This document shows, piece by piece, positions 8,323-60,120 of a stretch of 64,000 nucleotides of DNA. Positions within the stretch are counted from its first letter, which is position 1; the number at the start of each line of letters is the position of its first letter. Origin of the DNA: Liolophura sinensis (taxonomy: Eukaryota > Mollusca > Polyplacophora > Chitonida > Chitonidae); contig NC_088296.1 in the NCBI RefSeq assembly GCF_032854445.1, forward strand, positions 17,783,485-17,847,484, read 5' to 3'. Below the pieces are notes generated by a model. The model was given only the letters and a program-made list of their open reading frames with translations, had not been told where the DNA came from and did not search any database. A program made the translations under genes and the position numbers.

Positions 8323-11300
8323 TGTATATATACGTACACCATTTGATCTGATGACGGGTATGAGCCAGGCCCAGGTACTGTCCGAAGCATCTAAGGCTTC
8401 ACCATCTCGTCCTGCTCAGGGCATCATTTGTGACGGCACGACTCTATTGGGGATTGAACCATGTATCTTTTGGTTTTGAGTGGACACTTACATGTACATC
8501 GCTGGACTAAAGGGAAATCACTTCCACCCCGGAGGTACATTGTAGACAGAGTTGTGTGGCGTTTATAGTTTACCATGTTACACATACATATATAACTTCT
8601 TAAACACACAATTCTAATGGTCTGGATATGGTAATAAAGGATTTTTATGTTTGGCAGAAAAACCAGGAACTTCACTTCCAGGAGGTAGAAAAGGCTTATT
8701 GTGCAGCCTTGGAATCTTTACAAGCCTGGAGACAGCAATCCATAGATGGCATAAAAACCCGATATTCACAGTGGTGTGTGGAGTGTAACGCCATACTTAA
8801 ACATTTCCAGCTACAGGCCCAGGAAATGGAGAGGATGGTACAAGCTTCAAAAGATTTCTTAGCGTCAGTGGACGTCGAGTTTTTACAAGTAAGTTAAACA
8901 TGCACAATCTCTAGCATTGGTTCAGCTGCCTTAACTTCAGATGTTACACATGACCCAGCCACCCTTAGAACCTGTGATAACGTGTTGCTGCCAGATTTAC
9001 TAAAGTTGTAGATCCTGAGTTCAACAGCTTTATTTTGCTTAGTGGTACCCTCCGGTCGCTGACCACTTTTCTACCCATAATAGAACCACTGTCCGATTAA
9101 AGCAAAAAAGTAGTAATATATAATGTCAAACTATATTGTATGCTGTTTTTCAAAAACAAGGTTTGTATGTAAACAGATCTTTGGGGAAAATTGCATTGTA
9201 TGAAACGTCTTGGAATTTATTAACCGAAATTTCGAGCTGATGTGGACTATGTAATAGTTCAGGGAATGGTCTAAATGTTTGTCGTCGTCATATCACTGAA
9301 AAATTGTTAAGTACGACGTTAAACCCCAATCATTCACTCACTGACTCCAAATGTTTGTGGTAAAAGCCAACTGTGACTGTGTACTTGGAGAGATAAGACA
9401 TTTCAATTATAACTATGTCCTTGTTACATGTTGATGTGCAAGTATAGCTACAGTATCTCAGTTTCGGTTATCATCTTTACATGATTTTATATGTGTGTTC
9501 AATTCTGTTTGTTGACAGGGTTCCACGAGCTTCACCAAGACGTATGTATAAATGTTTTATACCTATATAGGTTTGTTATACACGAGCACATGACTGCTGT
9601 CAGCAAATGTGCTTCTGTAACACTGTGTACCAGCACTGTAGTTGTCCAAAACATGACACAAGTGTAAAATATATCTAGTGTTCAAATTTACGCTTGTCCA
9701 GACATATCAGATCTCACCTACTAGGAATAGTACATGATGGCATTCTGATAACTGCGTGGTGCACAACATTACTACACGACTGTGTCTCTTTGTTTTCTCT
9801 CCTGTTCCCACAGAATTGGTGACCAGCTGAATGAGATAGGAGCAAATCTGGAGAGAGATGAGGTCAGCAAACAGAATCTTCAAGGTTTTGTACAACTTGA
9901 CCTTGTTTTGCCTAGACACGTGACGGTAAAAGAGACAGTGCAAGGAAGTCAGGACTTAGAAGCAGCAGTCGGTGGACAAATGTCACGCCCAAGTAGGTTT
10001 TTATATGTATTAAAGGTATAAAGCAGAGTGTGTCCAGATGACATAAACGACTGTAGGGTTTACATTAGTATGTGCACCGAAGACACAAACTAATCTGAGG
10101 TATGCAGTAGGGTGTGCCCAGATGACACAAACTACTGTGAGAGATAAAATGTGGTTGTGTAAAAAAAAAGAAATTACATTGCAGAGTTATATATGAGCAG
10201 CTGTTTAGTTGAAACATGACATATGGTAGTGTATCCCTCAATGTCCCTCGATGTTTACCGTAAGTGTACAAATCAGCAGGTGTAATGTTAAATCAGGACT
10301 GGTGTGTGTGTATTCTTTAGTGTCTGGGTGATATTTACTCCACGCACACAAATCGGCAGGAGTACTTTTAGAACAGGACACATAGTAGTGTACCCTTTGG
10401 TGTCTGTGTAATGTTTACCACATGTGTAGAAATCAACAAGTTCACTGCCAGAGCAGGCCAGATGGCAGTGTACCCGTCAGTACCTGGGTGATATATACAT
10501 CATGTGTACAAATTAGCAAGTGTAATGTAAGAACAGGACAGATGGCAGTGTACCCGTCAGTACCTGGGTGATATATACATCATGTGTACAAATTAGCAAG
10601 TGTAATGTTAGAACAGGACAGATGGCAGTGTACCCCTCAGTACCTGGGTGATATATACATCATGTGTACAAATTAGCAAGTGTAATGTTAGAACAGGACA
10701 GATGGCAGTGTACCCGTCAGTACCTGGGTGATATATACATCATGTGTACAAATTAGCAAGTGTAATGTTAGAACAGGACAGATGGCAGTGTACCCGTCAG
10801 TACCTGGGTGATATATACATCATGTGTACAAATTAGCAAGTGTAATGTTAGAACAGGACAGATGGCAGTGTACCCGTCAGTACCTGGGTGATATATACAT
10901 CATGTGTACAAATTAGCAAGTGTAACGTTAGAACAGGACAGATGGCAGTGTACCCCTCAGTACCTGGGTGATATATACATCATGTGTACAAATTAGCAAG
11001 TGTAATGTTAGAACAGGACAGATGGCAGTGTACCCGTCAGTACCTGGATGATATATACATCATGTGTACAAATTAGCAAGTGTAATGTTAGAACAGGATA
11101 GATGGCAGTGTACCCGTCAGTACCTGGATGATATATACATCATGTGTACAAATCAGCAAGTGTAATGTTAGAACAGGACAGATGGCAGTGTAAAACTCAG
11201 TACCTGGGTGATATATACATCATGTGTACAAATTAGCAAGTGTAATGTTAGAACAGGACAGATGGCAGTGTACCCCTCAGTGCCTGGGTGATATATACAT

Positions 11301-14300
11301 CATGTGTACAAATTAGCAAGTGTAATGTTAGAACAGAACAGATGGCAGTGTACCCGTCAGTGCCTGGATGATATATACATCATGTGTACAAATTAGCAAG
11401 TGTAATGTTAGAACAGGACAGATGGCAGTGTACCCGTCAGTACCTGGGTGATATATACATCATGTGTACAAATTAGCAAGTCTAATGTTAGAACAGGACA
11501 GATGGCAGTGTACCCCTTAGTGCCTGGGTGATATATACATCATGTGTACAAATTAGCAAGTGTAATGTTAGAATAGGACAGATGGCAGTGTACCCCTCAG
11601 TACCAGGGTGATATATACATCATGTGTACAAATGAGCAAGTGTAATGTTAGAACAGAACACATGGCACGGTACCTCTTAGTGTTTAGGTCATATATACAG
11701 CATGTGTACAAATTAGCAAGTGTAATGTTAGACCAGAACACATAGCACAATCCCCCTGAGTGTCTGAGTGATATTTACCTTATGATTGTGTACAAATCAG
11801 CAGGTGTTCTGTTAGGAAAGAAGAAGTAACATATTTTACCCCTGAGTGCCTGAGTGGTATTTACCTCATGATTGTGTACAAATCAGCAGGTGTACTGTTA
11901 GGACAGAACACCTAAGTGTCTGAGTGATATTTACCCCATGTGTACAAATCAGCAGGTGTTCTGTTAGGAAAGAAGAGATAACATATTGTACCCCTGAGTG
12001 CCTGAGTGGTATTTACCTCATGATTGTGTACAAATCAGCAGGTGTACTGTTAGGACAGAACACCTAAGTGTCTGAGTGATATTTACCCCATGTGTACAAA
12101 TCAGCAGGTGTACTGTTAGGGCAGAACAGATAACATAGTGTACCAATGAGTGTGTGAGTGATATTTACCCCGTGTGCACAAATCAACAGCTGTAGTCCAT
12201 TGTTAGGACAGAACAGATGACGTATTGTACCCCTAAGTGTCTGAGTGATATTTACCCCATGTGTACAAATCAGCAGGTGTTCTGTTAGGAAAGAAGAAGT
12301 AACATATTTTACCCCTGAGTGCCTGAGTGGTATTTACCTCATGATTGTGTACAAATCAGCAGGTGTACTGTTAGGACAGAACACCTAAGTGTCTGAGTGA
12401 TATTTACCCCATGTGTACAAATCAGCAGGTGTTCTGTTAGGAAAGAAGAGATAACATATTGTACCCCTGAGTGCCTGAGTGGTATTTACCTCATGATTGT
12501 GTACAAATCAGCAGGTGTACTGTTAGGACAGAACACCTAAGTGTCTGAGTGATATTTACCCCATGTGTACAAATCAGCAGGTGTACTGTTAGGGCAGAAC
12601 AGATAACATAGTGTACCAATGAGTGTCTGAGTGGTATTTCCCCCATGTGTACAAATCAGCAGGTGTACTGTTAGGGCAGAACAGATAACATAGTGTACCA
12701 ATGAGTGTGTGAGTGATATTTACCCCGTGTGCACAAATCAACAGCTGTAGTCCATTGTTAGGACAGAACAGATGACGTATTGTACCCCTAAGTGTCTGAG
12801 TGATATTTACCCCATGTGGACAAATCAGCAGGTGTACTGTTAAGACAGAACAGATAACATATTGTACCCCTGAGTGTCTGAGTGATATTTACCTCACGTG
12901 TACAAATCAGCAGGTGTACTGTTAGGAGAGAACAGATAACATATTGTACCCCCGAGTGTCTGAGTGATATTTACTTCACGTGTACAAATCAGCAGGTGTT
13001 CTGTTAGGACAGAATAGATAACATATTGTACCCCTGAGTGTCTGAATGATATTTACCTCATGTGTACAAATCAGCAGGTGTACTGTTAGAACAGAACATA
13101 TAACATATTGTACCAATGAGTGTCTGAGTGATATTTACCCCGTGTGCACAAATCAACAGCTGTAGTCCATTGTTAGGACAGAACAGATGACGTATTGTAA
13201 CAACGACAAATTAGCAGCTGTACTAGATTCAAATGTAGTCAAACACTTATACCAAAGGGGAAAAAACCACTCATACCTGTTTCATTATAAATTTTAAAGG
13301 GTGGAGATTCCATGTATGTATAGAGTAATAATTGTTTACCTACATGTATTTCCTCACTTGTTCTAAGTTTGTTTTTAATATTTAAACACATTAACTCTCT
13401 TTTAAAAAAATGTATTGAAGAAAACTGAATCCAATACTTCTTTACCCCTAATAATACTGATGGGTTGAATAATCTGTGGGGTATTATGGGAAAAAAAGTC
13501 ACTTGGTAAGTTATATGTCGCCAGTTACCTCCCTTAGTAGACAGACGCGCTTCGGTACTACGCCAAAGGACAACAGGCCTACACTACAGCTTTACAGTGA
13601 ATCGTGTGTTCAAATGTGCCATAAATGACAACTAAAACCAAGTTCCGAATAGAGGAAGGTATTGTTCTTGTTGTAGGTGATAAGTTGCAAACAAATCAGA
13701 GCGCTAAAGTCTGCATTTCAATCCAGTACTTAGCCGATGTCGTATCCGCCATTTAGTGATGGATCCAGTTCTTGTCGAAGCTCAACTTTTTTTAACTGGC
13801 TGAAAAGGACAGAGATCTGTGTATAAATTATATTCTTGTCAGAAATATATGTCATTTTATTCCCAGAGGTTGTGTGGAGAAAGTAAAACCACGGCATGTG
13901 TGCAGGTATTTACACCTCAGTCTTACAGTGTGTGTTTATGCTTTGCTGTTTATGCTGCTTTCTGTTGTGTTTTTGCAGAGCCGACGCTGAGATTCACAGA
14001 GACAGACGACAGTGAGCTGAGAATTGCTGAGAGCGGCTCTGTGATAGAGGGTGACTTCTTGGAGGGGGACTTGGGGAGAGCTGTGACAAACGGCCGTTAC
14101 CAGACGGGCAGGTACTACTGGGAGATAGAGATCACCTGTTCACGTGTATGTGGCTCTGGCTGTGATGTAGGAGTTACACAGGAGAGCTGTGGTGTGAGGG
14201 GGAGGACAGACCCTGGCCACAACAGCTGGTACATTGGGATGCTGTGCCGTGGTGATGAGGTCAGGTGTTATAGTCACCGTGGTGGTGAGATCAAACCTGG

Positions 14301-17829: not shown

Positions 17830-19060
17830 ATATGGACTTCATATTCAACATATTTAAGTTGCCTGATGGGTATCTTATCAGTAGTGCCGGGTTTACTCTC
17901 AAATACCGAGTTCACACATTACCTGATCTGTGTCTTCTCAGGAGAGATGGCTTTCCCCTCTCTCTAATACCAGGTCCACACATTACCTGATGTGTAACTT
18001 CTCAGGAGAGCTGGTTTTCCTCTCTCTTTAATAACGGATCCACGCATTATACATGATGTGTTACTTCTCAGGAGAACAGGTTTTCCCCTTCTTTTTAATA
18101 CCGGGTCCACACATTTCCTGATGTGTAACTTCTCAGGAGAGCCCCTCTACTAATACCGAGTCGACGCATTATACATGATGTGTAATTTCTCAGGAAAGCT
18201 GGTTTCCTCTCTCTAATACCGGGTTGGCACATTATACATGATGTGTAACTTCTCAGGAGAGATGGTTTCCTCCCTCTAATACCGGGTCCACACATTGTGC
18301 ATGATGTGTAACTTCTCAGGAGAACAGGTTTTCCCCTTCTCTTTAATACCGGGTCCACACATTTCCTGATGTGTAACTTCTCAGGAGAGCCCCTCTACTA
18401 ATACCGAGTCGGCACATTATACATGATGTGTAATTTCTCAGGAAAGCTGGTTTCCTCTCTCTAATACCGGGTTGGCACATTATACATGATGTGTAACTTC
18501 TCAGGAGAGATGGTTTCCTCTCTCTAATACCGGGTTGGCACATTATACATGATGTGTAACTTCTCAGGAGAGATGGTTTCCTCTCTCTAATACCGGGTTG
18601 GCACATTATACATGATGTGTAACTTCTCAGGAGAGATGGTTTCCTCTCTCTAACACCGGGTCCACACATTTTGCATGATGTGTAACTTCTCAGGAGAGCT
18701 GGTTTTCCTCTCTCTTTAATAACGGATCTAGGCATTATACATGATGTGTAACTTCTCAGGAGAGCTGGTTTTCCTCTCTCTTTAATAACGGATCCACGCA
18801 TTATACATGATGTGTAACTTCTCAGGAGAACAGGTTTTCCCCTTCTCTTTAATACCGGGTCCACACATTTCCTGATGTGTAACTTCTCAGGAGAGCCCCT
18901 CTACTAATACCGAGTCCACACATTATACATGATGTGTAACTTCTCAGGAGAGCTGGTTTTTCTCTCTGCCTAAGAACGGCCCCACACATTACCTGATGTG
19001 TAACTTCTCAGGAGAACTGATTTTGCTTTCTCTCTAGTATAATACCGGGTCCCCACTGGT
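17830..19060. repeat. ~62-bp minisatellite
   Basis: About 19 units of 58-66 bp built around GATGTGTAACTTCTCAGGAG and CTCTAATACCGGGTCCACAC, with optional TATACA. Blocks of several units are themselves repeated: the set near 18095-18358 recurs near 18343-18864. Diverged units trail to about 19290. The long minus-strand open frames here (repeating LLRSYTSCIMC) are repeat artefacts. Confidence 0.95.
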
Positions 19061-28509: not shown

Positions 28510-29010
28510 GATGGTTGCAATATGTGATATTAATGCTATTCCTGACTGTACCGGTCATGAAATTAAGGCAAATGGTGGCAATGTGTGATATTAATGCTAT
28601 TCCTGACTGTACCGGTCATGAAATTAAGGCAAATGGTGGCAATGTGTGATATTAATGCTATTCCTGACTGTACCGGTCATGAAATTAAGGCAAATGGTGG
28701 CAATGTGTGATATTAATGCTATTCCTGACTGTACCGGTCATGAAATTAAGGCAAATGGTGGCAATGTGTGATATTAATGCTATTCCTGACTGTACCGGTC
28801 ATGAAATTAAGGCAAATGGTGGCAATATGTGATATTAATGCTATTCCTGACTGCACCTGTCATGAAATTAAAGCAAATGGTGGCAATGTGTGATATTAAT
28901 GCTATTCCTGACTGCACCTGTCATGAAATTAAAGCAAATGGTGGCAATGTGTGATATTAATGCTATTCCTGACTACACCTGTCATGAAATTAAAGCAAAT
29001 CACGGAAGGA
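28510..29010. repeat. 61-bp minisatellite, 8 copies
   Basis: TGTGATATTAATGCTATTCC recurs every 61 bp (28522, 28583, 28644 and on to 28949). The first copies carry GTACCGGTCATG and the last three CACCTGTCATG or ACACCTGTCATG, so the two ends evolved separately. A second direct repeat (AATCACGGAAGGATTTCAA) follows at about 28999 and 29121. Confidence 0.95.
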
Positions 29011-30508: not shown

Positions 30509-30690
30509 CTCAGTGATTCGATAAAAAGGATTCATCCCTTGACGCAGTCTTCTGTACCAGCGGTGTCCCTTGACAGTGGCGATGACTGCATACAAAATCA
30601 CCGCGGCGCAAATTACCGCCATTACAATCACGCCAGTCAGAAGACCATTCGATGACCGTTGATTTTTAGAGTTAGTAGGTCTATCTACCG
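30509..30690 (-). CDS. Receptor exon 11: transmembrane and NPFY
   Basis: Acceptor TTTGTTGTAG; enters in phase 1 and ends in phase 0 before donor GTAAGA. It encodes a short Ser/Asn stalk, a helix of about 24 residues (LLTGVIVMAVICAAVILY ...), KGHRWYRRLRQG and MNPFYRITE. If the donor were ignored the frame would run to a stop at 30389, adding about 40 unconvincing residues. Confidence 0.85.
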
Positions 30691-33600
30691 CTACAACAAA
30701 GGATATACAGTTTGCAATTACATGTTTTAGGAAGCGCAGAAACACGAATGTTTTCCTAACACTGTAAAGCCAAATTGTTAAGTTCAAAGCAAACTTCCTT
30801 AATGATTACATTCAGATTATGTTTCTTTATTTATTTTTTATTTAATTGCTGTTTAAAACCATATGTAAGATCTAGTTTTGCGTATATGATAAAGGTCAGT
30901 CTAATGGGCGAGCAATGCCCTGGGTAAAAAGCATTGACCTTTGGCATTTGTTTGACCAAGGGTAGTATTTAACGAAGTAGTGATTGCCATTTCTTACAAA
31001 TATAATACATGTAAAGCTGGCACTCGTCACAGTCAACTGCAATGCTCTTCTCTGCTGTACGCGATCGCTGTCCTTCACCGTGTCTTATGTGTACATGCAT
31101 TTTTCACGTCGAGTGGCATGTTCTTCATACCTGTCCTTGTGAAGTCTACGTGTTGTCTGTCCAATATGTTTAATAAAATGCGTAAGTTAAGGCAAGGGGA
31201 GTTTCTATACTTGTGGTTGTTTAAATATACTGTGCTTATTAGAAATCACTTTTATTGCTGCGTTTTTTTTTACACTTATTTAACGAAATTTGACAGCTAC
31301 AAGAGGACAGGTCATGGTTGATTGCTGTATTTCAGTTAGAATTTACCATGCGCATTTGGAATTGCTATTTGTCTAATGTAGGCGGTAAACAGCTGGCGGT
31401 GATGTAGTAGTCGACGGTGCTTGCCTTTAAATGTCTGGGACGTGCTAGTTGGGGATTCACAGAGGGAGTGTATAGACTTCCAGCCTTCACTGTTTTGTTT
31501 ACACTTGCTCATTGCTTGCGCAGCCAAGGCCTCGTTGAACACCAACTGCATTGCAGGTATACGGTACGCATGTCGGTATATCGCACGGCTGAAAATTCAC
31601 AGGGTTTGTCAAAGGTCCACACCTATGTACACTGTAACCTACACCATGGGTGAAACGTCTTTCTCCGCCAGTTGTATACAAGTTTAGAATCGTCATACAA
31701 AGGTTGATACTTATATATGATATTACGTTGTTCTATCTTTTCGCCTTTCATCTCTGTGAAAACTAAGGAAAAAAAAAACCCATCTGACTCGTAAATCGAC
31801 ATCTTGGTTCCGAGTTAGGCCTACAGGCGATATCACGTTCGTTTTCCATTTCACCGGCCTCAAATATTTAACAGAACGTGATCATATCTTCGAGTAGTCA
31901 AACTTACTTTCTTGGCAGATGTCTCCTTTATATCCGGCAGCGCAGGCGCTTTCATCACACGTTCCGTTGATATGGTTACAAGAGAAAACGTTTTTACAGT
32001 GACATTCGTTCTTACATTTATCTCCGAAACGGCCGGTCGCACATTCTAAAACAAGACAATGATATACAAGTACGTGGAAAAATAATGTGCCATTTGTGCA
32101 AAAGAGAAAATTGACATCGTTCTCAACGAACCAGAGATTCGTCGTTCTCATCAAATCAGACATTCTTTGTTCTCACCAAAGTAGACATTCATTGTTCTCA
32201 GGAAATCAGACATTCTTTGTTCTCACCAAAGTAGACATTCATCGTTCTCATCAAACCAGACATTCATCACAAACAGTGACTTGAACATCATAATTATTAT
32301 ATAATTATGCAACATTTTAATGCTTGGATATTAGTTAGCACAATCTCTTTGTTATATTTGTTTTCTGGCTTCGCTCTGAGAAGATAAAATGAAACACAAA
32401 TGATGCCATAGCACCCAAATTCACGTGTGGTCACGTGCGCATGCGACTGTCTGTGTGTATGTTATCTGTTACTATAATTTTCTGACTAAGTATTCCTAAA
32501 TGGTCAAACCTTCTTGGCAGTTATCTCCCTTGTATCCAGCAGCGCACCCATATTCATCGCATGTTCCGTTGGCATGGTTACACGAGGTAGCGTTCTTACA
32601 GTGACAGAAGAACTGGCATTTTTCTCCAAACCGACCGGTTTCACATGCTAATGAAAAAAAAAGTGTACAAAAAATATAAACCTGGGAAAATTTTCCACAA
32701 TGTTCTAAAGAATCGTTTCCCGTGTGCGTCGTCAATATTACAAATTCAGTTTGTTGCAGCACTCTGATCATTGACTCATAGGCTATTTATCTACATACTC
32801 CTCACATCGCATGCGCCGTTCATTACGTTTGCTTTACATCACTGCCAAATTTTCAACAGAAATCCTGCACTACCTCTGAGTGACTGTGCTCATTTTGATG
32901 GGGCAGGAATTGATGTCAGAAAGCACAAAAACTCTCTTTCTCTCTCAACTCTTTCTTCTAATAATGCTTGATACACATGTACATTCTCTTTATCTAAATC
33001 TCACAAAGGTGCACACGGACACATTAAATAATTTTATTTTAGAGTGTTGATTAAATGTACACGTGCGGACATCAGTAATGATGTTCAAACAAGCCCATGT
33101 TTGTCGAGCAATCTCCTAAGTCCAAGCTTCTCTACTGGTCTTCATGGTGACAGTGATGTATAGTGAGCTCAGCGACACAGGTGGTAAAAGAAGTATGACT
33201 TCGCTTTTGCTTTGTCCCCAATATCTGTGTTCAAACGCTTCGATCTTCGAATTTTTGCAAAAGTTTTGGATATAGAGACTCATGACTCATAGTGTCACAT
33301 GAACAGGTGAGACAGATCTGTATCCATGTCAGCCTCCATTGAGTCTTGTCTGTCAGCAGAGAACACAGATCTCCATGGTGAGAACACAGCGAACGACAGA
33401 TCCAGAGTCTAGCCTCCTTATGCTACACATTTACAAGACTCCCACCGTCCCGGCCGCCAACCCAATGAATGAGAGCCCCAAGTGAGTCCGGCCTACACAT
33501 GGCACAACCCGGATAACCTGGCTTACAACTCATCGTATTACAGCCTTAAATGAGTTCGGCCCACACATGCGACAAGAATCTAGAAATCCCGGTTGACAAA

Positions 33601-36600
33601 CCAGTATGTGACAGCCTTAAATTAGTGTGACCTGCACATGCCACAAGAGAACCCTGACATCCCGGCTTACATCCCATTATGTCACAGTCCACGTCAAACG
33701 CGACTTACCTCTATCACAAGATGGCTGTTGCTATTCCGCTTCACACCTCAGTATATTACAGTCTACAACAAATTCGAGGTGTCCCTTGATGTCCGGCTTC
33801 ACGTCCAAGTGTGTCACAGTCTGCATCAAACATGACTTCCCTCTATCACAAGATGACCCTTGGTATCCCGTTTAACAGCCCAGTGTGTCACAGTCCACAT
33901 CAAATGTGACCTACCTCTGTCACAAGATGACCCTTGTTATCCCGCTTAACAGCCCAGTGTGTCACAGTCCACATCAAATGTGACCTACCTCTATCACAAG
34001 ATGACCCTTGGTATCCCGCTTAACAGGCCAGTGTGTCACAGTCCACATCAAATGTGACTTCCCTCTATCACAAGATGCCCCCTTGTATCTCGCCTAATAG
34101 CCCAGTGTGTCACTGTCCATATTAAATGTGACCTACCTCTATCATAAAATGACCCTTGGTATCTCGCTTAACAGCCCAGTGTGTCACTGTCCACATCAAA
34201 TGTGACTTACCTCTATCACAAGATGCCCCCTGGTATCTCGCCTAATAGCCCAGTGTGTCACTGTCCATATTAAATGTGACCTACCTCTATCATAAAATGA
34301 CCCGTGGTATCTCGCTTAACAGCCCAGTGTGTCACAGTCCACATCAAATGTAACTTACCTTGATCACAAGAGGACCGTTGGTATCCAGCTTAACAAACCA
34401 ATGTGTCACAGTCCATATCAGATGGGACTACCCTCTATCATAAAATGACCCTTGGTATCTTGCTTAACAGCCCAGTGTGTCACAGTCCACATCAAATGTG
34501 ACTTACCTCGATCACAAGATGACCCTTGGTACCCCGCTTCACAGACCAGTGTGTCACAGCCCACATCAAATGTGACTTACCTCGATCACAAGATGACCCT
34601 TGGTACCCCGCTTTACAGCCCAGTGTGTCACAGCCCACATCAAATGTGACTTACCTCTATCACAAGAACGCCCTTGATATCCCGGTTCACAGCCAAGTGT
34701 GTCACAGGTTCCGTCAACTTTGTTACAAGACTCCTGGTTCTTGCAGTGGCAAATTTTCTGGCAATTCACATGGTACCTTCCTGTATCGCATTCTGGAACA
34801 TTCAGGGCGAAGGAGTTTTCGTCTACACATAATAAAATTTACTTGATTTCCACATACTACAATCGTGTTTAAGTGAAAAAAAAAAGAACAAAGAGAAGAA
34901 AGTAAAAATGATATGATTTACCTATTTTATGGTCGTTCAGAACGGCCTTTTACGTAGTCTTTTGATGTCGGTCATAATTCATATTGCAATTCTGGAGAAC
35001 TGTTTTGTGTAAGTGCAGAGAGGCTGAAATTATTTAAAAGCATTTGGAGAATTGTTGTGTGTGAGTGGAGAGAAATAATATAACTTCTCAAGGATGAATA
35101 AGGGATAAAAGTGTTTTTTCTTCTCAACTTCCTGAGAAGGAGTGTTTTGTGTGTATTTGTGGCATTCGTTACATGGAATTGATTTTTTACAACAGAATGA
35201 AAATAAAGTCGGACGGCGATTCCGAGGGTCGGCTCTATACGCCGTGCAAATATCAATGATAACTGCTCTAAAAAGCAAAAATTAGAGACGAAAAAATACT
35301 GGATTTGAACCCGGGACTTCCAGGTAACGCATACTTTAGGTCCAATACTAAGACTTCTTCTCACAGCCGAGAGCGAAAGACAGAAAGAAAGCGCTGTTGC
35401 AAGTTTAACGCCCATCCCCACAATGAACTCCTGTAATTAGTTTGATGCAGTCTGGCACGAAGCTCCCGTGTTAAGTACATGAGAGACTGTCAAGCAGTTT
35501 GAAAACATTTGCTGCTAATTTCATGAAAAACTATACAACACAGGTGAAAACAATGAGCAATTGGAAATCAGTGGCCTTAAATGCAGCAGAATAATCGTTG
35601 ATTGTCAACGCCAATTTTTCAAGCTTTATGTACCTATGGTCAGAGTGAACAAGAATATAAATTTTTTTTAGGAAAATCAGTTCAATAGTTGTTGAGAAAA
35701 AAGGCTTTTAATTTCGCAATGGTCCTCAAACCACGCGGCCAATTTACAGAGGGCCGATCTACTAATTACCATATTTTTGTGAGACTTCGAGTTAAGAATA
35801 AACATACCGATCGAAGAAAGCTTATATGTGCAATATAATTAAGAATGTCACTTTCATTTCGGTCTGCGTCGAGTATTTTATTGAAACGATAAAAATCCCC
35901 AGACTGGTTAATTTTTGTCCATGTCTGTATTATGCCACAGTAAATAAACAGTAAGAATAAAAACAAGACAAATACCTTGCTGGCAGTTGTCTCCTGTGTA
36001 TCCTGCGTAACAACCACGCCCGCAATGCCCGGTGGTTCTGTTGCAATCTGAATGACTCGGATAACAGTGACATTTACCCTGGCATCCCTCTCCAAACTCA
36101 CCATAATAGCACTCTGCAAAAGAATAGATTGACTGAATCCCCTGTCGCCTGTACCTGACGAAGCTTCTGACGTCAGCTTGTAATGACTCGGTAGCGGACA
36201 AACTTTGTGAAGTCACCCCTACTGGTGCAAGCACCTAACAAACCTTCTGACATCACCTCGACCGGTGTCGGTATCAGACAAGCTTGGTGACGTCACCTGT
36301 GCTGATCCAGACACCTGGAAAACCAGCTGACCTCACACTTTCAGGTCCGGGTAGCACACAAACTTTTTAATGTCACCTCTCCTGGTGCAGGTACATAGCA
36401 AAGCCGCTGATGGCATCTCGTCCAACAACAGTCGCTGTACGCTTTAATTAAATTGCGCATGCGGAGCAAATATAAAATAAATGTATATACATAGGGCCTA
36501 TACTCTCAAGTCAGTAGAATAACCATCCTTCATTGACTGAATCATACATATACTGGCGCAAAACACTTTTCTGCTTTTAATGAACGTAAGTACATGTTGC

Positions 36601-45600: not shown

Positions 45601-48600
45601 TACACGATTAGCATAGTTGTACTCTAGCTCTGAGATCGGGTGGCCATGTTCCCGGTTTAGCTTCTATACTAACAACCCGCTCTAAATCGTTACATTCGCT
45701 AACATGGAACTCGGTCCTCTCGCCTATGCTGTCCTCAAAGTCGCAACGTTGTGGTCCACAAAAAGAGGTGTCCCATGATCTTGAAGTAAACCATTATGCG
45801 GGTATAAATAAGGACCACAACATGGCAAATAACGCAAATCTACCCCCCTCGGACAGTATCAGAACTTCGCAAACTGCCCATTTTCGAATCACGTAACTCC
45901 GTTGTTATGGTGAAACTCGGGTGCACTTCCCAAATGTAAGATCATCTACTTTTTTCACAATAGTTGATTATAGCTCCTTTCTTTTTTGTTCATTATTAAC
46001 ACGTAAATTAAAGTTAAGACTTCCAAACAATTTGTCAATCTCCTTTTAGATCGGATATAGTTCATTGATTTCAACCAGATCTTTCCACTACAATATCTTT
46101 TTCCAGACAATGCCGAGTGCGGCCGACTCAAATTGAAAATGGCGGTTAGCGACGTTTACCTTGCTATAGATGCAACAGGTACATTTGTGTTAATTGTGAC
46201 GTTGTGGTCTCTATTATTTAGGAATAACAAGGCGTCATGAAGTAAGAACAGCAGAAGCATTACAGGAAACATGTTTCTGTATCGTACATCTTCGACATGT
46301 TGAGAACAGCACAAGCGAAAAAAACGTGAGAAAAAACAGATCTCAGATCTATGTTGTACTCACCCCTCTGACACGTGGGACCGCTCCACCCCGGCTGACA
46401 TCCCAGATCCCCACACCCCATCACATGCTCAGGCAGACAATTCTTCTCGGACGTGTTACAGCGGCAGGTTAGTTCACAGGGAGAGCGATGGGTGTTACAT
46501 TGACCTATAGAGACGGATTGGTTGACTGCTTGTTACAGTTACAGGTAAAGGATGTTGTTAATAACGCGATCAAAAATTACAGCTTAAGATGGCTCTTAAG
46601 AATATTTCACTCATAGTTGTACCCAAGGCAGCCACCAGCTTTTGGCTAGAAACTGACAAATCTTTTCACTGGTGACGAACATCTGTCCACCCGATGCCAT
46701 TGTGAGCTCTAGGTGTATGTCATATTATTTTGTGGAATCAAATGATCTCTAACTAACTTCCAAAAAAGTCATTTTACCGTATACATGTAGGGGTGGCCGA
46801 TAATTTATTTCTCTGATGTTATTTTCTACTTGATATTTTTATTTTCGTCTGTTTTTCTTTTACAAGGAAAAGAAACAACCGAAAATACATAGAGGCCTAC
46901 ATGCAGGATTGCGAGGTGGCTATCTGGTATAACCTTTGGTCTCATGTAGAATTTCCTTCAGCACTTTGGCAAACTAGAATTTAACATATTCAAATTTTAA
47001 TGTTTAATCATGAAAATAAGACAATATTTATATATTACCTATATGTGTTCACATCAGCAGCAGGGATACGATAAAAAAAGAAAACAAAGCAAAATTAAAT
47101 TGACCGGCCTCAGATATATTACATTTTTTTTATTACAAACTCCAGTCCAAAAAAAAATCCCTAATTCCACGACAAGAACGCTACAGTTCCTGTTCGACAG
47201 TATATTATATTCTGTGAATACACAACTGAAGTAGACTGTTGACATGGATGACGATTAAATGCATTGTTCAAACAATCTAGTATTTTTTTACAGAAATATT
47301 TTGCGATCAGTCTTGGTTACTGTACACTAAAAAAAAACTAATCTGTTAAAATTAACAGAAATTCTGTTATCTGAGTAATGCCACAATGTGTTCTGTTACT
47401 GCAGCAGATCAATCTGTTAAATATAACACACATATTCTATCAATTCAAAGTGACCATTCTGTTAGACTCACATGGCATTATGTTTAATTTGACAGAATAG
47501 CCTTTCTGTTTAATTTAACACATTCATTTTTTGCGTTTACATTCACAGCCAGTTATTGGGTTACACAGGCACGGTGTTCCAGACATTGCTTCATGACTGT
47601 CCAGCCAAAGTGCAGTAAAGGCACAAATAACAGTGAAATCTTTAGGCACATGATGGGAAGTTAATTTTGAAATGAGTGTACACAAGGCAATGGTAGTTCA
47701 ATTCCGCAAACCTATTGCAGATACGTGTATTTGAACAATATATTTTGGTAAAAACTATTTTATTTCTTTAAGCATCCTCTAAGTCTGGTTCCTTAGCATT
47801 GTTTTCATGTTACTGTACGTGAAATCCAACAAGAACACAGCATTTTGAGTAATTTTACACCAGTCACGTCTCGTAAATTGCAGGTAACTTCACTGAATTG
47901 TTTTTGTTTTTTCCATTAATTCTGCTTAAGCCAAAGGGCTATATGGGAGGCGCAATTTGCTACTATGTGGGGCAGAGGTGGTTAGCGTGTCATGCTGCAA
48001 TCACTCAGGGACCTCTCATCTATGCTGTCGCTATCAGCGTGTCCAGCTTATGTTGGCTTCCTCAGTATATCACAATGCCTGCCGGCAATCTGCAGATGAT
48101 CGTGGGATTCCACCGGGTTCTTCCCGGTTTCCTCCCACCATCATATTGCTGGCCGGTTTCGTATAGGTGAAGTATTCTTCAGTACGGTATAAAACGCCAA
48201 TCAATTAAATAAATACATTTGCCATTAATTAAGTATTTACGTAAACAGACAGAACAAACTCAAAGTAAATTAATAAGAGACCGTATTTCATCGGTTACGT
48301 GTGACTATTTGCCGGATATCACACAGTCGTCCCTGCTCTGGTTTTACTCTCTATGCTACACGTCTGTCACACTGTCGTCCCTGCTCTGGTTTTACTCTCT
48401 ATGCTGTACGCCTATCACACTGTGGTCGCTGCTCTGGTTTTACTCTCTAAACTCCACGTCTATCATATAGTCTTCGCTGCGGTGGTTTTACTCTCTATGC
48501 TGTACGTCTATGACAATGTCGTCACTGCTGTGGTTTTACTCTCTATGCTGCACGTCTGTCACACTGTCGTCGCTGCTGTGGTCTTACTCTCTATGTTGCA

Positions 48601-50260
48601 CGTCTGTCACACTGTCGTCGCTGCTCTGGTCTTACTCTCTATGCTGCACGTCTGTCACACAGTCGTCGGTGCTCTGGCTTTACTCTCTATGCTGTAAGTC
48701 TATCACACTGTCGTCGCTGTTCTGGCTTTACTCTCTATACTGTTCGTCTATCACACTGTCGTCGCTGCTGTAGTTTTACTCTCCATGCTGTACGTCTATC
48801 ACATTGTCGTCACTGCTGTGGTTTTACTCTCCATGCTGTACGTCTATCACACAGTCGTCGCTGCTGTGGTTTTACTCTCTCTGCTGTACGTCTATCACAC
48901 TGTCGTCGCTGCTGTGGTTTTGCTCTCTATGCTGCACGTCTATCACACTGTCTTCGCTGCTGTTGTGGTTTTACTCTCTATACTGTACGTCTATCACACT
49001 GTCTTCGCTGCTGTGGTTTTACTCTCTCTACTGTACGTCAATCACACTGTCAACGCTGCTGTGGTTTTACTCTCTCTGCTGTACATCTATAACACTGTCT
49101 TCGCTGCTGTGGTTTTACTCTCTGTGTTGTGCGTCCTAATGGCATTATTTTGTAAAGTATTTCTCAGTGGTAAAATTCAGCCAAATATTGCGTGTACATG
49201 TATTCATTGTAAAACGTACTTCAGATAACTCACCTACAAAATATCCGTTGTGCTGTTGTCTGTCTCTAATGTGAGGGGTTGGGGTGGGGGGTGGGGGGTG
49301 GGGGTGGGGGATCCCTGACTCAGTCGGTAAGGGCGCTAGCGCAGCGTAAAGACCCGGCAGCCTCTCACCAATGCGGTCGCTGTGAGTTTAAGTCCAGCTC
49401 ATGCTGGCTTCCTCTCCGGCCATAAGTGGGAAGGTCTGCCGGCAAACTGCGGATGGTCGTGGGTTTCCACCGGGGTGTGCCCGGTTTCCACCCACGATAA
49501 TTCTGGCCACCGTCGTATAAGTAAAATATTCTTGAGTACGGTGTAAAACACCAATCAAATAAATAAATAAATAAATAAATCTAATGTGAGGAGAATCCAC
49601 ATAAAAAAATCCTCTTCTTCAACTATAAACTTATCTGACTAGCGAGTCAACTGAGTTCAATAAGGCATTTCATAATACAAAAACGCTTCGTTAAGCAGAT
49701 CAGCTGGGTAAAGGAACACTAGGATGAGTTCCGTTCTACATTACGTGACCCAATTTAGCAAGTACAGTAGATTAAGGGAAAATTTGACACAGTCTGTTTA
49801 TTTTCTAGCATTTGTCAGTTACGCCACTTAAGGCACTGCCTGCTAATAGACATGTAGTCTGAGTCAGATGGCAAATATGGTTCGAAATATATTGTTTCTG
49901 AAGTGTTATCTAACTATCACCGCCAAGAGAGTGATGTTTTTGCCTGATGGATAGAGCATTCAGATCTGCTGATCTGTGCCATAGTTCCGTCAATTCTCCT
50001 TATCTCAAGATTAGTGGCTGTACATGCAGCTATGCTCATTACATCCATGTGCTTATTTGAACAGTTCCAAACAAAGCCCGACTATCTCTGTACTTGATCT
50101 GAGAATTATCCGTGACTTACGACAATACATTTTCAATTTGATGTCATGCCTAAAATCTCGACAGTCTTTTCGAAAGCTAAGAAAGTTACTTACCAGAAAT
50201 ATCCAATGGCATGATGAAGACGACAAAAATTGATATCAGCAGACATAATATTTTCTCCAT
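30509..50260 (-). CDS. MEGF/Draper-like receptor: galactose-binding and EGF repeats, transmembrane, NPFY
   Basis: Minus-strand join, 5' to 3': 50260-50194, 46504-46364, 43297-43103, 41320-41114, 38690-38553, 37921-37784, 36113-35976, 34792-34655, 32647-32510, 32045-31908, 30690-30509. This totals 1620 nt (540 codons), GT-AG throughout, all internal junctions phase 1. Residues 1-22 are a signal peptide; 23-69 an EGF-like unit; 70-203 a fucolectin/F5-8C-type galactose-binding domain; 204-479 six EGF-like units; 496-519 a transmembrane helix, followed by a basic stop-transfer segment and NPFY at 533-536. NPxY binds PTB adaptors, and in CED-1/Draper/MEGF10 it recruits CED-6/GULP for engulfment. 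The ectodomain suggests a glycan- or debris-recognising surface receptor. The last exon ends in phase 0 at a GTAAGA donor, so cytoplasmic exons must follow but were not found. Molluscan receptor tyrosine phosphatases with similar ectodomains are an alternative. Confidence 0.88.
30790..31905. other. Receptor intron 10, no further exon seen
   Basis: Intron between exons 11 and 10. Several long overlapping frames occur on both strands at 31330-31690, but none has splice signals or recognisable motifs. Nothing is called. Confidence 0.45.
31908..32045 (-). CDS. Receptor exon 10: EGF-like unit 7
   Basis: 138 bp, phase 1-1, acceptor CTTGTTTTAG and donor GTAAGT. Pattern ECATGRFGDKC...C.C ... NGTCD ... 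CAAGYKGDICQ, a laminin/MEGF-type EGF unit. Very similar to exon 9. Confidence 0.88.
32090..32275. repeat. Short tandem repeat in receptor intron
   Basis: Units of about 30 bp: CATTCTTTGTTCTCACCAAA, GTAGACATTCATTGTTCTCA, repeated about six times. Confidence 0.8.
32510..32647 (-). CDS. Receptor exon 9: EGF-like unit 6
   Basis: 138 bp, phase 1-1, acceptor TTTTTTTTCATTAG and donor GTTTGA (weaker than the other donors). Pattern CETGRFGEKCQFFCHCKN ... NGTCDEYGCAAGYKGDNCQ. Confidence 0.86.
33440..34700. repeat. 74-bp tandem array derived from the 3' end of receptor exon 8
   Basis: Units recur every 74 bp; for example GTGTGTCACA starts at 33883, 33957, 34031 and 34105. On the minus strand each unit reads like the last ~50 bp of exon 8 (TGTGACACACT.GGCTGT, then TCTTGTGATAGAG) followed by GTAAGTCACATTTGATGTGG, that is, the splice donor and the start of the intron. 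About 14 units are well preserved (33650-34700), and more diverged ones extend left to about 33440. The array abuts the real exon at 34655. Confidence 0.9.
34655..34792 (-). CDS. Receptor exon 8: EGF-like unit 5
   Basis: 138 bp, phase 1-1, acceptor GAATGTTCCAG and donor GTAAGT. Pattern ECDTGRYHVNCQKICHCKN ... DGTCDTLGCEPGYQGRSC. Its 3' end and donor seed the 74-bp array immediately downstream, so the true donor competes with many copies. Confidence 0.88.
34800..35970. other. Receptor intron 7, nothing coding recognised
   Basis: Contains a tRNA box-B-like sequence on the minus strand near 35304-35316 (GGTTCAAATCC), possibly an eroded SINE head, too weak to call as a gene. Otherwise nothing. 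Confidence 0.4.
35976..36113 (-). CDS. Receptor exon 7: EGF-like unit 4
   Basis: 138 bp, phase 1-1, acceptor TTCTTTTGCAG and donor GTATTT. Pattern ECYYGEFGEGCQGKCHCYP ... TGHCGRGCYAGYTGDNC. Confidence 0.87.
36135..36420. repeat. ~60-bp degenerate tandem repeat
   Basis: About five units with GACAAGCTTGGTGACGTCACC and CTGGTGCAGGTACATAGCAA variants, just upstream of exon 7 in the gene's sense. Confidence 0.7.
36425..37780. other. Receptor intron 6, nothing recognised
   Basis: AT-rich; no exon, repeat array or SINE seen. Confidence 0.4.
37784..37921 (-). CDS. Receptor exon 6: EGF-like unit 3
   Basis: 138 bp, phase 1-1, acceptor TCTGTTTTGCTCAG and donor GTACGC. Pattern ECPEGTFGFSCNSVCHCKN ... 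DGTCDVQGCAAGYKGHNC. Confidence 0.87.
38553..38690 (-). CDS. Receptor exon 5: EGF-like unit 2
   Basis: 138 bp, phase 1-1, acceptor TATTTGCCAG and donor GTAATT. Pattern CGVFWFGDQCDRLCNCQP ... TGDCYYGCRSGFNGTDC. The FWFGDQC start is the family's usual entry after the galactose-binding domain. Confidence 0.88.
38700..40420. other. Receptor intron 4, part; nothing recognised
   Basis: Scanned for EGF signatures on the minus strand; none found. No classifiable repeat. Confidence 0.4.
40423..40710 (+). mobile_element. Family-B SINE, near full length
   Basis: Begins with a tRNA-like head (TATGGCCCAGTTGTTAGATC). Its body includes AAAGACTTTAAAGGAGTAAG, CTTCCTCGCTTGGCGTTAAA, AACCACTGGTTGACCCGTAT and CTTGCTTGCCTTTGGTAAGT. 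It ends near CATTCACTCACTCTC. The family's TTAAGTACGACGTTAAAC tail is replaced or eroded here. Confidence 0.8.
41114..41320 (-). CDS. Receptor exon 4: galactose-binding domain, second half
   Basis: 207 bp, phase 1-1, acceptor TGTTATGCAG and donor GTGAGT. Reads NNISGFEIYVSETSDF ... CYRDN ... VINCTQPLNGLYVKL ... AIREMEIY, matching the C-terminal half of fucolectin/tachylectin-4/pentraxin-1-type domains. Confidence 0.86.
41490..41555 (+). mobile_element. Family-B SINE, 3' tail fragment
   Basis: GTCGTCATATGACTGAAGAA, TTGTTAGGTACGACGTTACG, CATTCATTCATG. Confidence 0.75.
42088..42483 (-). repeat. Inverted repeat, left arm (unique block and SINE)
   Basis: 42088-42274 is the reverse complement of about 43660-43852, about 94% identical by eye over ~185 bp. 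It continues into a family-A SINE (42275-42483, plus) that matches, in reverse, the SINE at 43438-43640. The arms are separated by about 950 bp that contain receptor exon 3. Confidence 0.9.
42275..42483 (+). mobile_element. Family-A SINE, head-truncated
   Basis: Starts at CTCACCAATGCAGTCGCTG, lacking box A. The body is complete (CATGCTGGCTTCCTCTCCGG) and it ends with GCGGCGTAAAACACCTATCA. Part of the left arm of the inverted repeat. Confidence 0.85.
42590..42775 (+). mobile_element. Family-A SINE, diverged
   Basis: GTGGCTTAGTGGAAGGT, ACCTGCGGATGGTTCGGGGG, CATTCCTCCCACCGAAATGCT, ACAATGTAAAACACCAATGA. Confidence 0.75.
42820..43040 (+). mobile_element. Family-A SINE
   Basis: TTGTGAGTTCAAGTCTGTCT box B, CTCCGGCCGTGG, ACCTGCGGATGGTTGTGGGA, GCGCCGTCGTATAAGTGAAA, then an (AAAT)n tail to about 43038. 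Confidence 0.8.
43103..43297 (-). CDS. Receptor exon 3: galactose-binding domain, first half
   Basis: 195 bp, phase 1-1, acceptor TTGTTCTACAG and donor GTACAG. Reads NIAFLQW ... AFDGNLSTVFRSREEANPYL ... VWIKR ... SMRIYNG, with the DGN.ST metal/ligand-site signature and the strand ending in the IYN motif of FTP/F5-8C folds. It is bracketed by the inverted-repeat arms. Confidence 0.86.
43430..43852 (+). repeat. Inverted repeat, right arm
   Basis: Reverse complement of 42088-42483. The non-SINE part (43655-43852) has an open plus-strand frame with several cysteines (IACNRCTLGNEDLSYVLCEA, ending VEHCTCTSHQDHQ). The same frame is broken in the left arm. Confidence 0.9.
43438..43640 (-). mobile_element. 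Family-A SINE, head-truncated
   Basis: Minus-strand SINE from TTTGATTGGTGTTTTACGCC to GCATTGGTGAGAGACTG, truncated at nearly the same head position as the copy at 42275. Part of the right arm of the inverted repeat. Confidence 0.85.
43860..45040. other. Receptor intron 2, part; nothing recognised
   Basis: No exon or repeat identified. A plus-strand open frame at 44757-44954 has no recognisable motif and no splice evidence. Confidence 0.4.
45043..45146. mobile_element. MITE-like element, copy 2 (diverged)
   Basis: CTCCAAAAAATAATGTGTTAAG, then AGAATGTATTCTATTATTG, then TCTGTTAAACATAG. Shares the order seen at 25378-25510. Confidence 0.4.
45292..45554 (-). mobile_element. Family-A SINE, full length
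   Basis: The tail (ATTT)n is at 45292. The minus-strand head near 45550 reads GGGGCTTTCGTGGCTGAGTT then GGTTAGCGCGCTAGC, a well-preserved tRNA-like box A. Box B (GAGTTCAAGTCC) is present. Confidence 0.88.
46364..46504 (-). CDS. Receptor exon 2: EGF-like unit 1
   Basis: 141 bp, phase 1-1, acceptor CTCTATAG (short pyrimidine tract) and donor GTGAGT. Reads QCNTHRSPCELTCRCN ... CGDLGCQPGWSGPTCQRG, the N-terminal cysteine-rich unit that precedes the galactose-binding domain. The phase match to the signal-peptide exon supports the model. Confidence 0.82.
46510..47320. other. Receptor intron 1, part; nothing recognised
   Basis: No exon or classifiable repeat seen. Confidence 0.4.
47325..47535. mobile_element. 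MITE-like element with terminal inverted repeats, copy 3
   Basis: The left end CACTAAAAAAAAACTAATCT, followed by GTTAAAATTAACAG, is mirrored by the right end (GTTTAATTTAACACATTC, then ATTTTTTGCG). This gives imperfect terminal inverted repeats of about 30 bp, with internal CTGTTAAAT palindromes. No coding capacity; about 211 bp. Confidence 0.65.
47760..48350 (+). repeat. Dispersed repeat family C, copy 2 (split by a SINE)
   Basis: 47760-47965 and 48223-48350 are the two halves of a unit that is continuous at 17195-17500 and 52410-52700. The SINE at 47969-48215 sits between them. Confidence 0.75.
47969..48215 (+). mobile_element. Family-A SINE inserted in repeat C
   Basis: AGGTGGTTAGCGTGTCATGC head, GATGATCGTGGGATTCCACC, TTTCCTCCCACCATCATATT, ACGGTATAAAACGCCAATCA and an AATTAAATAAATA tail. 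Confidence 0.8.
48300..49140. repeat. 48-bp minisatellite
   Basis: About 17 units of CTATCACACTGTCGTCGCTG followed by CTGTGGTTTTACTCTCTATGCTGTACGT. Because 48 is divisible by 3, long plus-strand frames with a repeating 16-residue hydrophobic peptide (YHTVVAAVVLLSMLYV) appear. These are not genes: no signal, no splice sites, and equal openness in another frame. The array begins exactly at the 3' end of repeat C. Confidence 0.95.
49275..49310 (+). other. G-quadruplex-prone tract
   Basis: Six G-runs of 4-6 separated by T or TT (GGGGTTGGGGTGGGGGGTGG...). It adjoins the 5' end of the next SINE. Confidence 0.7.
49308..49582 (+). mobile_element. Family-A SINE, full length
   Basis: CTGACTCAGTCGGTAAGGGC box A, GAGTTTAAGTCC box B, full body, GGTGTAAAACACCAATCAAA and an (AAAT)n tail ending at 49582. 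Confidence 0.88.
50194..50260 (-). CDS. Receptor exon 1: signal peptide
   Basis: Start codon at 50260-50258, preceded by TTAACAAAAA (A at -3). Encodes MEKILCLLISIFVVFIMPLD, then IS and one base of the next codon, before donor GTAAGT. A Lys followed by a ~15-residue hydrophobic core is a standard signal peptide. The phase-1 exit matches exon 2. Confidence 0.85.
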
Positions 50261-58559: not shown

Positions 58560-59458
58560 AGTAAGCCAGTCAGTCAGTGGTCAAATTGAATCAAACGATT
58601 AAACGAATATACATGCGCTCAGTCATTCATCCAGTCAGCTAGTCAGCAAATCAGCCAGTCAGTCCGCAAGTCAAACAGTCAGAGTGTCCGTAAGTCAACC
58701 GATGAGTCAACAAGTTAACCAGTCTACCAGTCAGTAAATCAACCGATTGATAAATCAGGCGTACAGTCTGTGATGCAATCAGCCAGTCAGTCAGTCTGCC
58801 TGTCGAAGAATCCACCGATCGATGAGTCAAGCGTTCAGTCTGTCAGGCAGGCAGCCAGTCAGTCAGTCAGTCAGTCTGCCTGTCAGTGAGTCCACCGATC
58901 GATGAGTCAAGCGTTCAGTCTGTCAGGCAGGCAGCCAGTCAGTCAGTCAGTCTGCCTGTCAGTGAGTCCACCGATCGATGAGTCAAGCGTTCAGTTTGTC
59001 AGGCAGGCAGCCAGACAGTCAGTCAGTCAGTCTGCCTGTCAGTGAGTCCACCGATCGATGAGTCAAGCGTTCAGTCGGTCAGGCAGGCAGCCAGTCAGTC
59101 TGCCAGTCCGTGAGTCCACCGTTCGATGAGTCAAGCGTTCAGTCAGTCAGGCAGGCAGCCAGTCAGTCAGTCAGTCAGTCAGTCTGCCAGTCCGTGAATC
59201 CACCGTTCGATGAGACAAGCGTTCAGTCTGTCAGGCAGGCAGTCAGTCAGTCAGTCACTCTGTCAGTCTGCCAGTCCGTGAATCCACCGATCGGTCAGTC
59301 AGCGTTCAGGCTGTCAGGCAGGCAGTTAGTCAGCCAGTCTGCCTGTCAGTGAGTCCGCCGATCGATGAGTCAAGCGTTAATTCTGTCAGGCAGGCAGCCA
59401 GTCAGTCAGTCTGCCTGTCAGTGAATCCACCGATCAATCAGTCAAGCGTTCAGCCTGT

Positions 59459-59489
<31 letters not shown>

Positions 59490-60120
59490 CCAGTCAGTCA
59501 GTCAGTCAGTCAGTCAGTCAGTCAATCCGTGAATCCACCGTTCGATGAGTCAAGCGTTCAGTCGGTCAGGCAGGCACCAGTCAGCCAGTCAGTCAGTCAG
59601 TCTACCATTCCGTGAATCCACCGTTCGATGAGTCAAGCGTTCAGTTTGTCAGGCAGGCACCAGTCAGTCAGTCAGTCAGTCTACCATTCCGTGAATCCAC
59701 CGTTCGATTAGTCCAGCGTTCAGTCAGTCAGTCAGTCAGTCTGCCTGTCAGTGAGTCCACCATTTGATGAGTAAATCGTTCAGTCTGTCAGGCAGACAGC
59801 CAGTCAATCTGTCTGCCTGTCAGTGAGTCCACCGTTCGATGAGTCAGTCAGTCAGTCAGTCTGCCTGTCAGTGAATCCACCGATCGATGAGTCAAGCGTT
59901 CAGTCTGTCAGGCAGGCAGCCAGTCAGTCAGTCTGCCTGTCAGTGAGTCCACCGATCGATGAGTCAAGCGTCCAGTCTGTCAGGCAGGCAGCCAGTCAGT
60001 CAGTCAGTCAGTCTGCCTGTCAGTGAGTCCACCGTTCGATGAGTCACCGGAATCAGTCAGTCAATATGTCAGCCTGTCACTCAGCAAGCGTATCAGTGAG
60101 TCGATCAGTCAGTGCAGGTC
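58560..60120. repeat. CAGT-rich VNTR with ~75-85-bp units
   Basis: Units contain CGATCGATGAGTCAAGCGTT, CAGTCTGTCAGGCAGGCAGC and a variable (CAGT)n block, then CTGCCTGTCAGTGAGTCCAC. About 16 units occur from 58790 to 60090, preceded by looser CAGT sequence. The plus-strand frames repeating SQSVSQSVCQSV are repeat artefacts. Confidence 0.95.

Follow-up and report, generated by a model that had tools for sequence, protein, structure and literature searches.

Minisatellites that run across exon-intron boundaries have been described in amphioxus, where they are termed mirages and occur in the Adh3 gene and the globin genes BflGb6 and BflGb9 (PMC3087553). They were first described by Canestro et al. 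2002. The available part of the later report (PMC3087553) speaks of many copies that carry splice signals, of regular splicing left undisturbed and of length instability. Minisatellites are also reported from intron 3 of an abalone TSSK1-like gene, with a 27-bp unit (PMC6905558), and from earthworm metallothionein introns (PMC12783039), as far as the accessible portions of both papers go. Here we describe an array in the chiton Liolophura sinensis, lying in a 64,000-nucleotide stretch of contig NC_088296.1 (assembly GCF_032854445.1, positions 17,783,485 to 17,847,484), which we call the window. In this array, the 3' end of an exon for an epidermal growth factor (EGF)-like module is repeated in tandem together with its splice donor, within a receptor-like gene. 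Judged by its sequence, the array is probably a mirage in the amphioxus sense, a minisatellite across an exon-intron boundary that fills the intron and is tolerated there without a selected function. The whole gene and its array lie on the minus strand, and positions are given in window numbering.

The array follows exon 8 of the gene, whose product is an EGF-like module (ECDTGRYHVNCQKICHCKN...SCDRG). Its 74-bp unit consists of the final 53 bp of exon 8 (34655-34707) and the first 21 bp of the intron that separates exon 8 from exon 9 (2007 bp in all). When each unit was aligned to the real exon/intron boundary, units 1-11 were found in exact 74-bp register, with 77-88% identity (74-87% in the exonic 53 bp and 71-100% in the intronic 21 bp), and the decoy donor GT was intact in 8 of these 11 full units. 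Tandem Repeats Finder (TRF) scored the array at 1290, with 12.5 copies including exon 8's own, 86% matches and zero indels. A BLASTN comparison of the exon 8 boundary with the 1.5 kb downstream returned 15 matches (best E 7.5e-25), a level of similarity far from chance. The original prediction took the units to derive from the end of exon 8 with its donor, to be oriented with transcription and to sit downstream of that genuine donor; these alignments bear it out. It had also counted about 14 good and several decayed copies; the repeat itself stands, but the count becomes 11 full units, one truncated unit and one edge unit, with GT in 9 of the 12 scored, and below 33671 the sequence belongs to an older layer.

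A search of the whole genome (609.46 Mb, 632 contigs) with four units as the query found at least 21 matches. They fall at six places, each of them on one scaffold (scaffold_10) and behind exon 8 of a sister gene; these counts are lower bounds. A dispersed repeat is ruled out, as the array was found at these six places only. One of the six, L003, is a broken gene copy with stops in its exons. Each of the six arrays has its own unit variants, near-identical unit pairs occur inside arrays, and two unit subtypes are common to L002 and L004. Diverged edge units are present in four of the six loci (the window, L002, L003 and L006) and absent from L004 and L005. Because the array is present behind the same exon in six gene copies, it appears to predate the gene duplications. 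In a further sister gene, at 17,967,952-17,973,111 (L048/L049), exon 8, the array and the preceding exon of the L002, L004 and L006 copies were undetected, having been either lost or never gained.

The units also carry a record of their own history. For comparisons across the six loci, we scored 39 intronic units, excluding four with fewer than 55 of 74 matches (in L002, in L006 and two in L003) and the truncated window unit. At each of the six real boundaries, one codon of the exon encodes glutamate (GAA or GAG); the same position in the 39 units reads TAA in 32, TAG in 2, GAA in 3, AAA in 1 and GCA in 1. A stop in 34 of 39 units versus glutamate at 6 of 6 boundaries gives a Fisher p of 6e-5, for units that are not independent. 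This stop is a derived state common to the arrays of separate genes, and for that reason the array would have been founded, and coding constraint on it lost, before the genes parted. In the window, L002 and L006, the distal edge unit has retained GAA, which fits an order in which the exon gave rise to first copies, a nonsense unit then arose and this unit spread.

The direction from exon to array is supported by sequence comparison: EGF-like exons without arrays also contain the copied, EGF-like coding part, while the units carry the derived stop. The array as the source of the exon is ruled out by the same presence of the copied part in exons lacking an array. The evidence also speaks against an array converting the end of its exon, as in five of the six loci some other locus has units nearer to the real boundary than the local ones (for L002, 0.821 with the L005 units and 0.775 with its own). 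Only in L005 do the local units, at 0.838, head the row. Between L006 and L002, the copied 3' part of exon 8 differs at 12 of 48 positions versus 8 of 87 in the rest of the exon (p 0.02, uncorrected), and L006 versus L004 is alike; the window and L005 show no difference of this kind (p 0.75), and the window compared with L002, L004 and L006 goes in the opposite direction.

Beyond the edge unit lies a more diverged repeat layer, which matches by blastn, at 73% identity over 302 bp (E 1e-45), a region of the nearest sister gene that contains a 73-bp array (L043). We infer that this layer is an earlier generation of the 74-bp repeat, because the consensus of the 73-bp array still aligns to the 74-bp unit, over 33 bases and with a score of 31 that exceeds all 300 shuffles (highest, 26). 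In the nearest sister gene, this older layer has grown to 12 copies of 73 bp (L043:8182-9056; scaffold_10, ~17,773,181-17,774,055), and the proximal layer there has 4.9 copies. The layer sizes are opposite in the window, where the proximal layer is the larger.

We propose that the array began with a tandem duplication spanning the donor in an ancestor of the gene cluster, that unequal exchange or slippage may then have expanded, contracted and layered it, and that it would have travelled with the gene duplications. The spliceosome would stay with the first, exon-defining donor, which would win by exon definition, and any transcript spliced at a decoy would be frameshifted or stopped, give no receptor and probably decay. 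The predicted consequences of decoy use are as follows. At 74 bp, a unit does not comprise a whole number of codons. Decoy 1 leaves the frame open and adds 24 foreign residues, after which exons 9 and 10 are read in the wrong frame, with no stop within those two exons. Decoys 2-11 lead to a stop after 75 residues from the start of exon 8 (29 past the exon end), located in the copied intron start GTAAGTCACATTTGA; because this stop sits in the second unit, every later donor includes it. The same 75-residue stop is found from decoy 2 onward in L002, L004, L005 and L006, where the translation covered exon 8 and its units. Every decoy tested thus gives a stop or a frameshift, and none gives an in-frame lengthened EGF module.

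Coding sequence was compared between the window gene and its nearest sister, L005. Over 219 codons of exons 6-10, the nonsynonymous divergence (dN) was 0.066 and the synonymous divergence (dS) 0.160, a ratio of 0.42, with per-exon ratios of 0.78, 0.35, 0.65, 0.29 and 0.17 for exons 6 through 10. The window gene appears constrained, and exon 8 looks to be among its less constrained exons. A ratio of 0.42 is as would be expected under prevailing normal splicing and lends indirect support to splicing being undisturbed.

Several points weigh against a tolerated array of no selected function. The dN/dS estimate comes from a single pair, without a significance test, and it is weak for exons 6 (0.78) and 8 (0.65). 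The conservation analysis given below is weakened by units that are recent duplicates and not independent. Window units 1, 2 and 6 equal the genuine donor both in sequence and in U1 duplex energy (-10.2 kcal/mol), the edge unit's donor sequence equals it as well, and decoys reading AAG/GTAAGT (the slash marks the splice junction) in the window, L002 and L004 outscore their genuine donors on a matrix built from 27 family donors. In competition between 5' splice sites, intron-proximal copies of equal strength are often favored, so that some use of the decoys would be expected. If splicing is normal, then donor strength alone is insufficient to explain donor choice. RNA structure that hides the decoys is ruled out as the explanation: the sites are predicted to be mostly paired, genuine donors included, and accessibility is low and similar for genuine and decoy donors, so the prediction does not separate them.

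A selected alternative would be a poison-donor switch, in which regulated use of decoys yields transcripts that stop in the array and are degraded, thereby setting the receptor dose. GT is intact in 33 of the 39 scored units, several donors are as strong as the real one, inclusion of two units brings in the 75-residue stop in the window, L002, L004, L005 and L006 alike, and the array persists in six gene copies. However, conservation at the donor positions does not exceed that elsewhere in the unit. The donor GT is kept at 0.846; the median for the 73 pairs of adjacent positions in the unit is 0.872, and 39 of these pairs are better kept than GT. Among 66 windows of nine bases, 58 (the donor's own included) equal or surpass donor positions -3 to +6. 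The broken copy, L003, retains GT equally often (6 of 7 units versus 27 of 32 at the other loci, p 1.0). Selection for or against the decoys is not visible in these counts, with weak selection possible. In addition, L006 has GT in only one of its two scored units, the gene copy at 17967952-17973111 has no detected exon 8 or array, and the stop resides in the copied intron start, hence arrives with the unit. We consider a switch of this kind unlikely.

In another reading, the array would be kept as a bank of 5' splice sites in competition, in which the real donor gives receptor and any decoy gives a stopped or frameshifted transcript; receptor output would then be tuned, differing across gene copies and individuals according to their unit number. 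Consistent with this, five apparently intact receptor genes keep downstream donors that match or exceed the real one in strength. We regard such a bank as unlikely.

The original prediction had also raised the possibility of U1 small nuclear ribonucleoprotein (snRNP) decoys. As decoys or sinks, the units would recruit U1 without splicing, for example suppressing premature intronic polyadenylation or strengthening exon definition. A stretch of ~0.9 kb in the window has nine GT sites, and the eight in full units would pair with the U1 end at duplex energies between -9.9 and -10.2 kcal/mol; against this stand the lack of donor-specific conservation and the low predicted accessibility of the sites, which is like that of the genuine donor. 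A role in binding U1 thus seems quite improbable.

The remaining explanations receive hardly any weight from us. Isoforms with a longer EGF module, as first suggested from the strong donors and the one open unit (unit 1) adjoining the exon, fail on the reading frame, as 0 of 11 window units extend in frame to exon 9 (unit 1 shifts the frame, units 2-11 stop first) and the unit-2 stop is also present in L002, L004, L005 and L006, which makes them very doubtful. Recursive splicing, with the AG/GTAAGT of each unit as a ratchet point, is similarly far-fetched: AG and GT are joined at the end of the exonic part in most units, but the pyrimidine content upstream of AG/GT is 0.35-0.60 at 12 window sites, including the genuine donor, versus 0.70-0.90 at five genuine acceptors. 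Tandem repeats are prone to misassembly and HiFi coverage was only 14X according to the assembly paper as available to us, yet an assembly artefact is scarcely credible given that the same source puts the average HiFi read at 8.3 kb, far longer than the ~1-kb array, so that single reads span it (PMC11068029), and that each of the six arrays has its own variants.

The sister genes offer a graded natural series, in which one exon is followed by 2, 4, 6, 8 or 12 scored extra units, with the broken copy as a neutral yardstick. This series could be used to probe how the spliceosome chooses among near-equal 5' splice sites, and how harmless arrays of exon boundaries are.

The host protein is called EGF-like from its cysteine pattern and a hydrophobic stretch only; in a Pfam scan, EGF_STAB1-2, EGF_PEAR1L and EGF_laminin all remained under their curated cut-offs. 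A kinase or phosphatase tail was considered, and no such motif was found in the window or in 16 further stretches searched. The features of the gene, its repeat layers and the sister loci are collected in Table 1.

Table 1. Features of the receptor-like gene and its repeat layers in the window, and sister loci that bear the array
Feature	Position	Strand	Remarks
EGF-like exon 8	34655..34792	-	138 bp, phase 1-1; open frame, acceptor TTCCAG, donor GAG/GTAAGT, tblastn to sister exons
Genuine 5' splice site and initial 21 bp of intron (intronic part of unit)	34634..34654	-	first intron base 34654
Proximal array	33762..34633	-	11 full 74-bp units (34633-33820) and 1 truncated unit (33819-33762, approximate); TRF and alignment to boundary
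Distal edge unit	33688..33761	-	diverged; keeps Glu codon (GAA) and GAG/GTAAGT
Older repeat layer	33380..33671	-	diverged; lower limit set by the query end; blastn to L043 region
EGF-like exon 9	32510..32647	-	splice target of the genuine exon 8 donor
EGF-like exon 10	31908..32045	-	same receptor-like gene
Exon with transmembrane-like hydrophobic stretch (approximate)	30509..30690	-	reading frame and tblastn counterparts in six sister copies; acceptor position approximate
Sister locus L005	scaffold_10, 17772694	+	TRF copies, exon's own included: 4.9
Sister locus L004	scaffold_10, 17890786	-	TRF copies, 7.0
Sister locus L006	scaffold_10, 17918138	-	TRF copies, 1.9
Sister locus L002	scaffold_10, 18009708	-	TRF copies, 9.0
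Sister locus L003	scaffold_10, 22802576	+	TRF copies, 8.8

To assess how frequent boundary arrays are, we compared 62 merged arrays (period of at least 20) with 72 exons of the EGF-like or membrane type in 222,485 bases; this control recognizes exons only by likeness to the family and drops matches of fewer than 30 residues, hence the broken exon 8. Arrays are abundant in this sequence (28,129 bp), and there were six overlaps of exon and array: five copies of exon 8 and one 137-bp double of a membrane exon end in the broken copy. As we read these data, boundary arrays are few and have two origins in the gene family. Among 30 EGF-like exon loci, five have an adjoining boundary array and 25 have none, any matches there lying farther away (the nearest 403 bases on, not each identified). 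The membrane exon double, in which the exon end and a GTAAG donor occur twice, 137 bp apart (L058:575-847; scaffold_10, ~22,806,574-22,806,846), is perhaps the first stage of a boundary array. Genome-wide, triples of AGGTAAGT spaced 22-52 numbered 672 versus 509 in a reversed control, with overlapping windows counted, which is no clear excess. By eye, contig C1 has ~20 separate arrays with repeated AGGTAAGT between 325,004 and 93,393,022, some of which, such as CCTGCAG/GTAAGTACTGTG, resemble an exon end plus donor and could represent further mirages.

Other repeats occur in the window as well. A 61-bp tandem array at 28511-29000 (8 copies, 98% matches) is the most uniform of its large minisatellites; further ones, at 10264-13199, 17898-19036, 48317-49135 and 58775-60046, do not overlap detected EGF-like or membrane exons, the exon types that were sought. 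At the left end, a reverse transcriptase domain (RVT_1, E 2.6e-23) is encoded on the minus strand at 779-1147 and probably belongs to a retrotransposon. Elsewhere in the assembly, contig C99 has seven cox1 matches (Pfam) ~15.5 kb apart in one orientation, which points to head-to-tail mitochondrial genomes, perhaps a product of assembly. The mitochondrial genes run nad3-S-nad2-cox1-cox2-D (cox1 assigned by Pfam, the others from our reading of the sequence), an arrangement that occurs in chitons and other molluscs.

The original prediction called an exon-derived array of splice donors unusual. This holds within the gene family, but not for the class, which is known from the amphioxus mirages and from a minisatellite of the human 6-16 gene (G1P3/IFI6). 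The latter reportedly has 12-bp units across the boundary, some of whose donors are used. To go by the title of its description (Turri, Cuin and Porter 1995), it offers many splice donors in one transcript, as the chiton array does; the chiton units, unlike the human ones, measure 74 bp and mostly carry stops. In intron gain by tandem genomic duplication, described for potato RdRp (PMC4974935, in the part available), a segment bearing a splice site is likewise duplicated in tandem; in the chiton, by contrast, no new intron is seen and the copies sit within an existing one. Tandem exon duplication with mutually exclusive splicing also involves coding-derived tandem copies, according to the accessible text of PMC9013439, whereas the chiton units have neither a complete exon nor a good acceptor and are mostly stop-bearing. 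The abalone and earthworm arrays resemble that of the chiton in being intronic minisatellites of lophotrochozoans, and they are not said, in the portions of those papers at hand, to span an exon boundary. Our search of an open library, covering mostly the top-ranked papers, returned no report of an exon-boundary minisatellite in a mollusc; the term "tandem repeat" is absent from the available text of the assembly paper (PMC11068029), and "minisatellite" is absent from the main text of a comparative chiton paper (PMC12005716).

The closest likeness is to the amphioxus mirages, as far as the available part of their description goes. In both cases, a boundary and its splice signal are copied in tandem into the adjoining intron, starting in the real exon; the splice dinucleotide is present in many but not all copies (33 of 39 in the chiton); copy number varies, in the chiton between paralogues of one haplotype; and edge units escape homogenization. 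The chiton array differs in its host, which is not a cephalochordate, in being common to a gene cluster and in having two age layers. The mirage type of minisatellite, known from lancelets, would thereby also be present in a mollusc, and within the literature searched this phylum is new for it.

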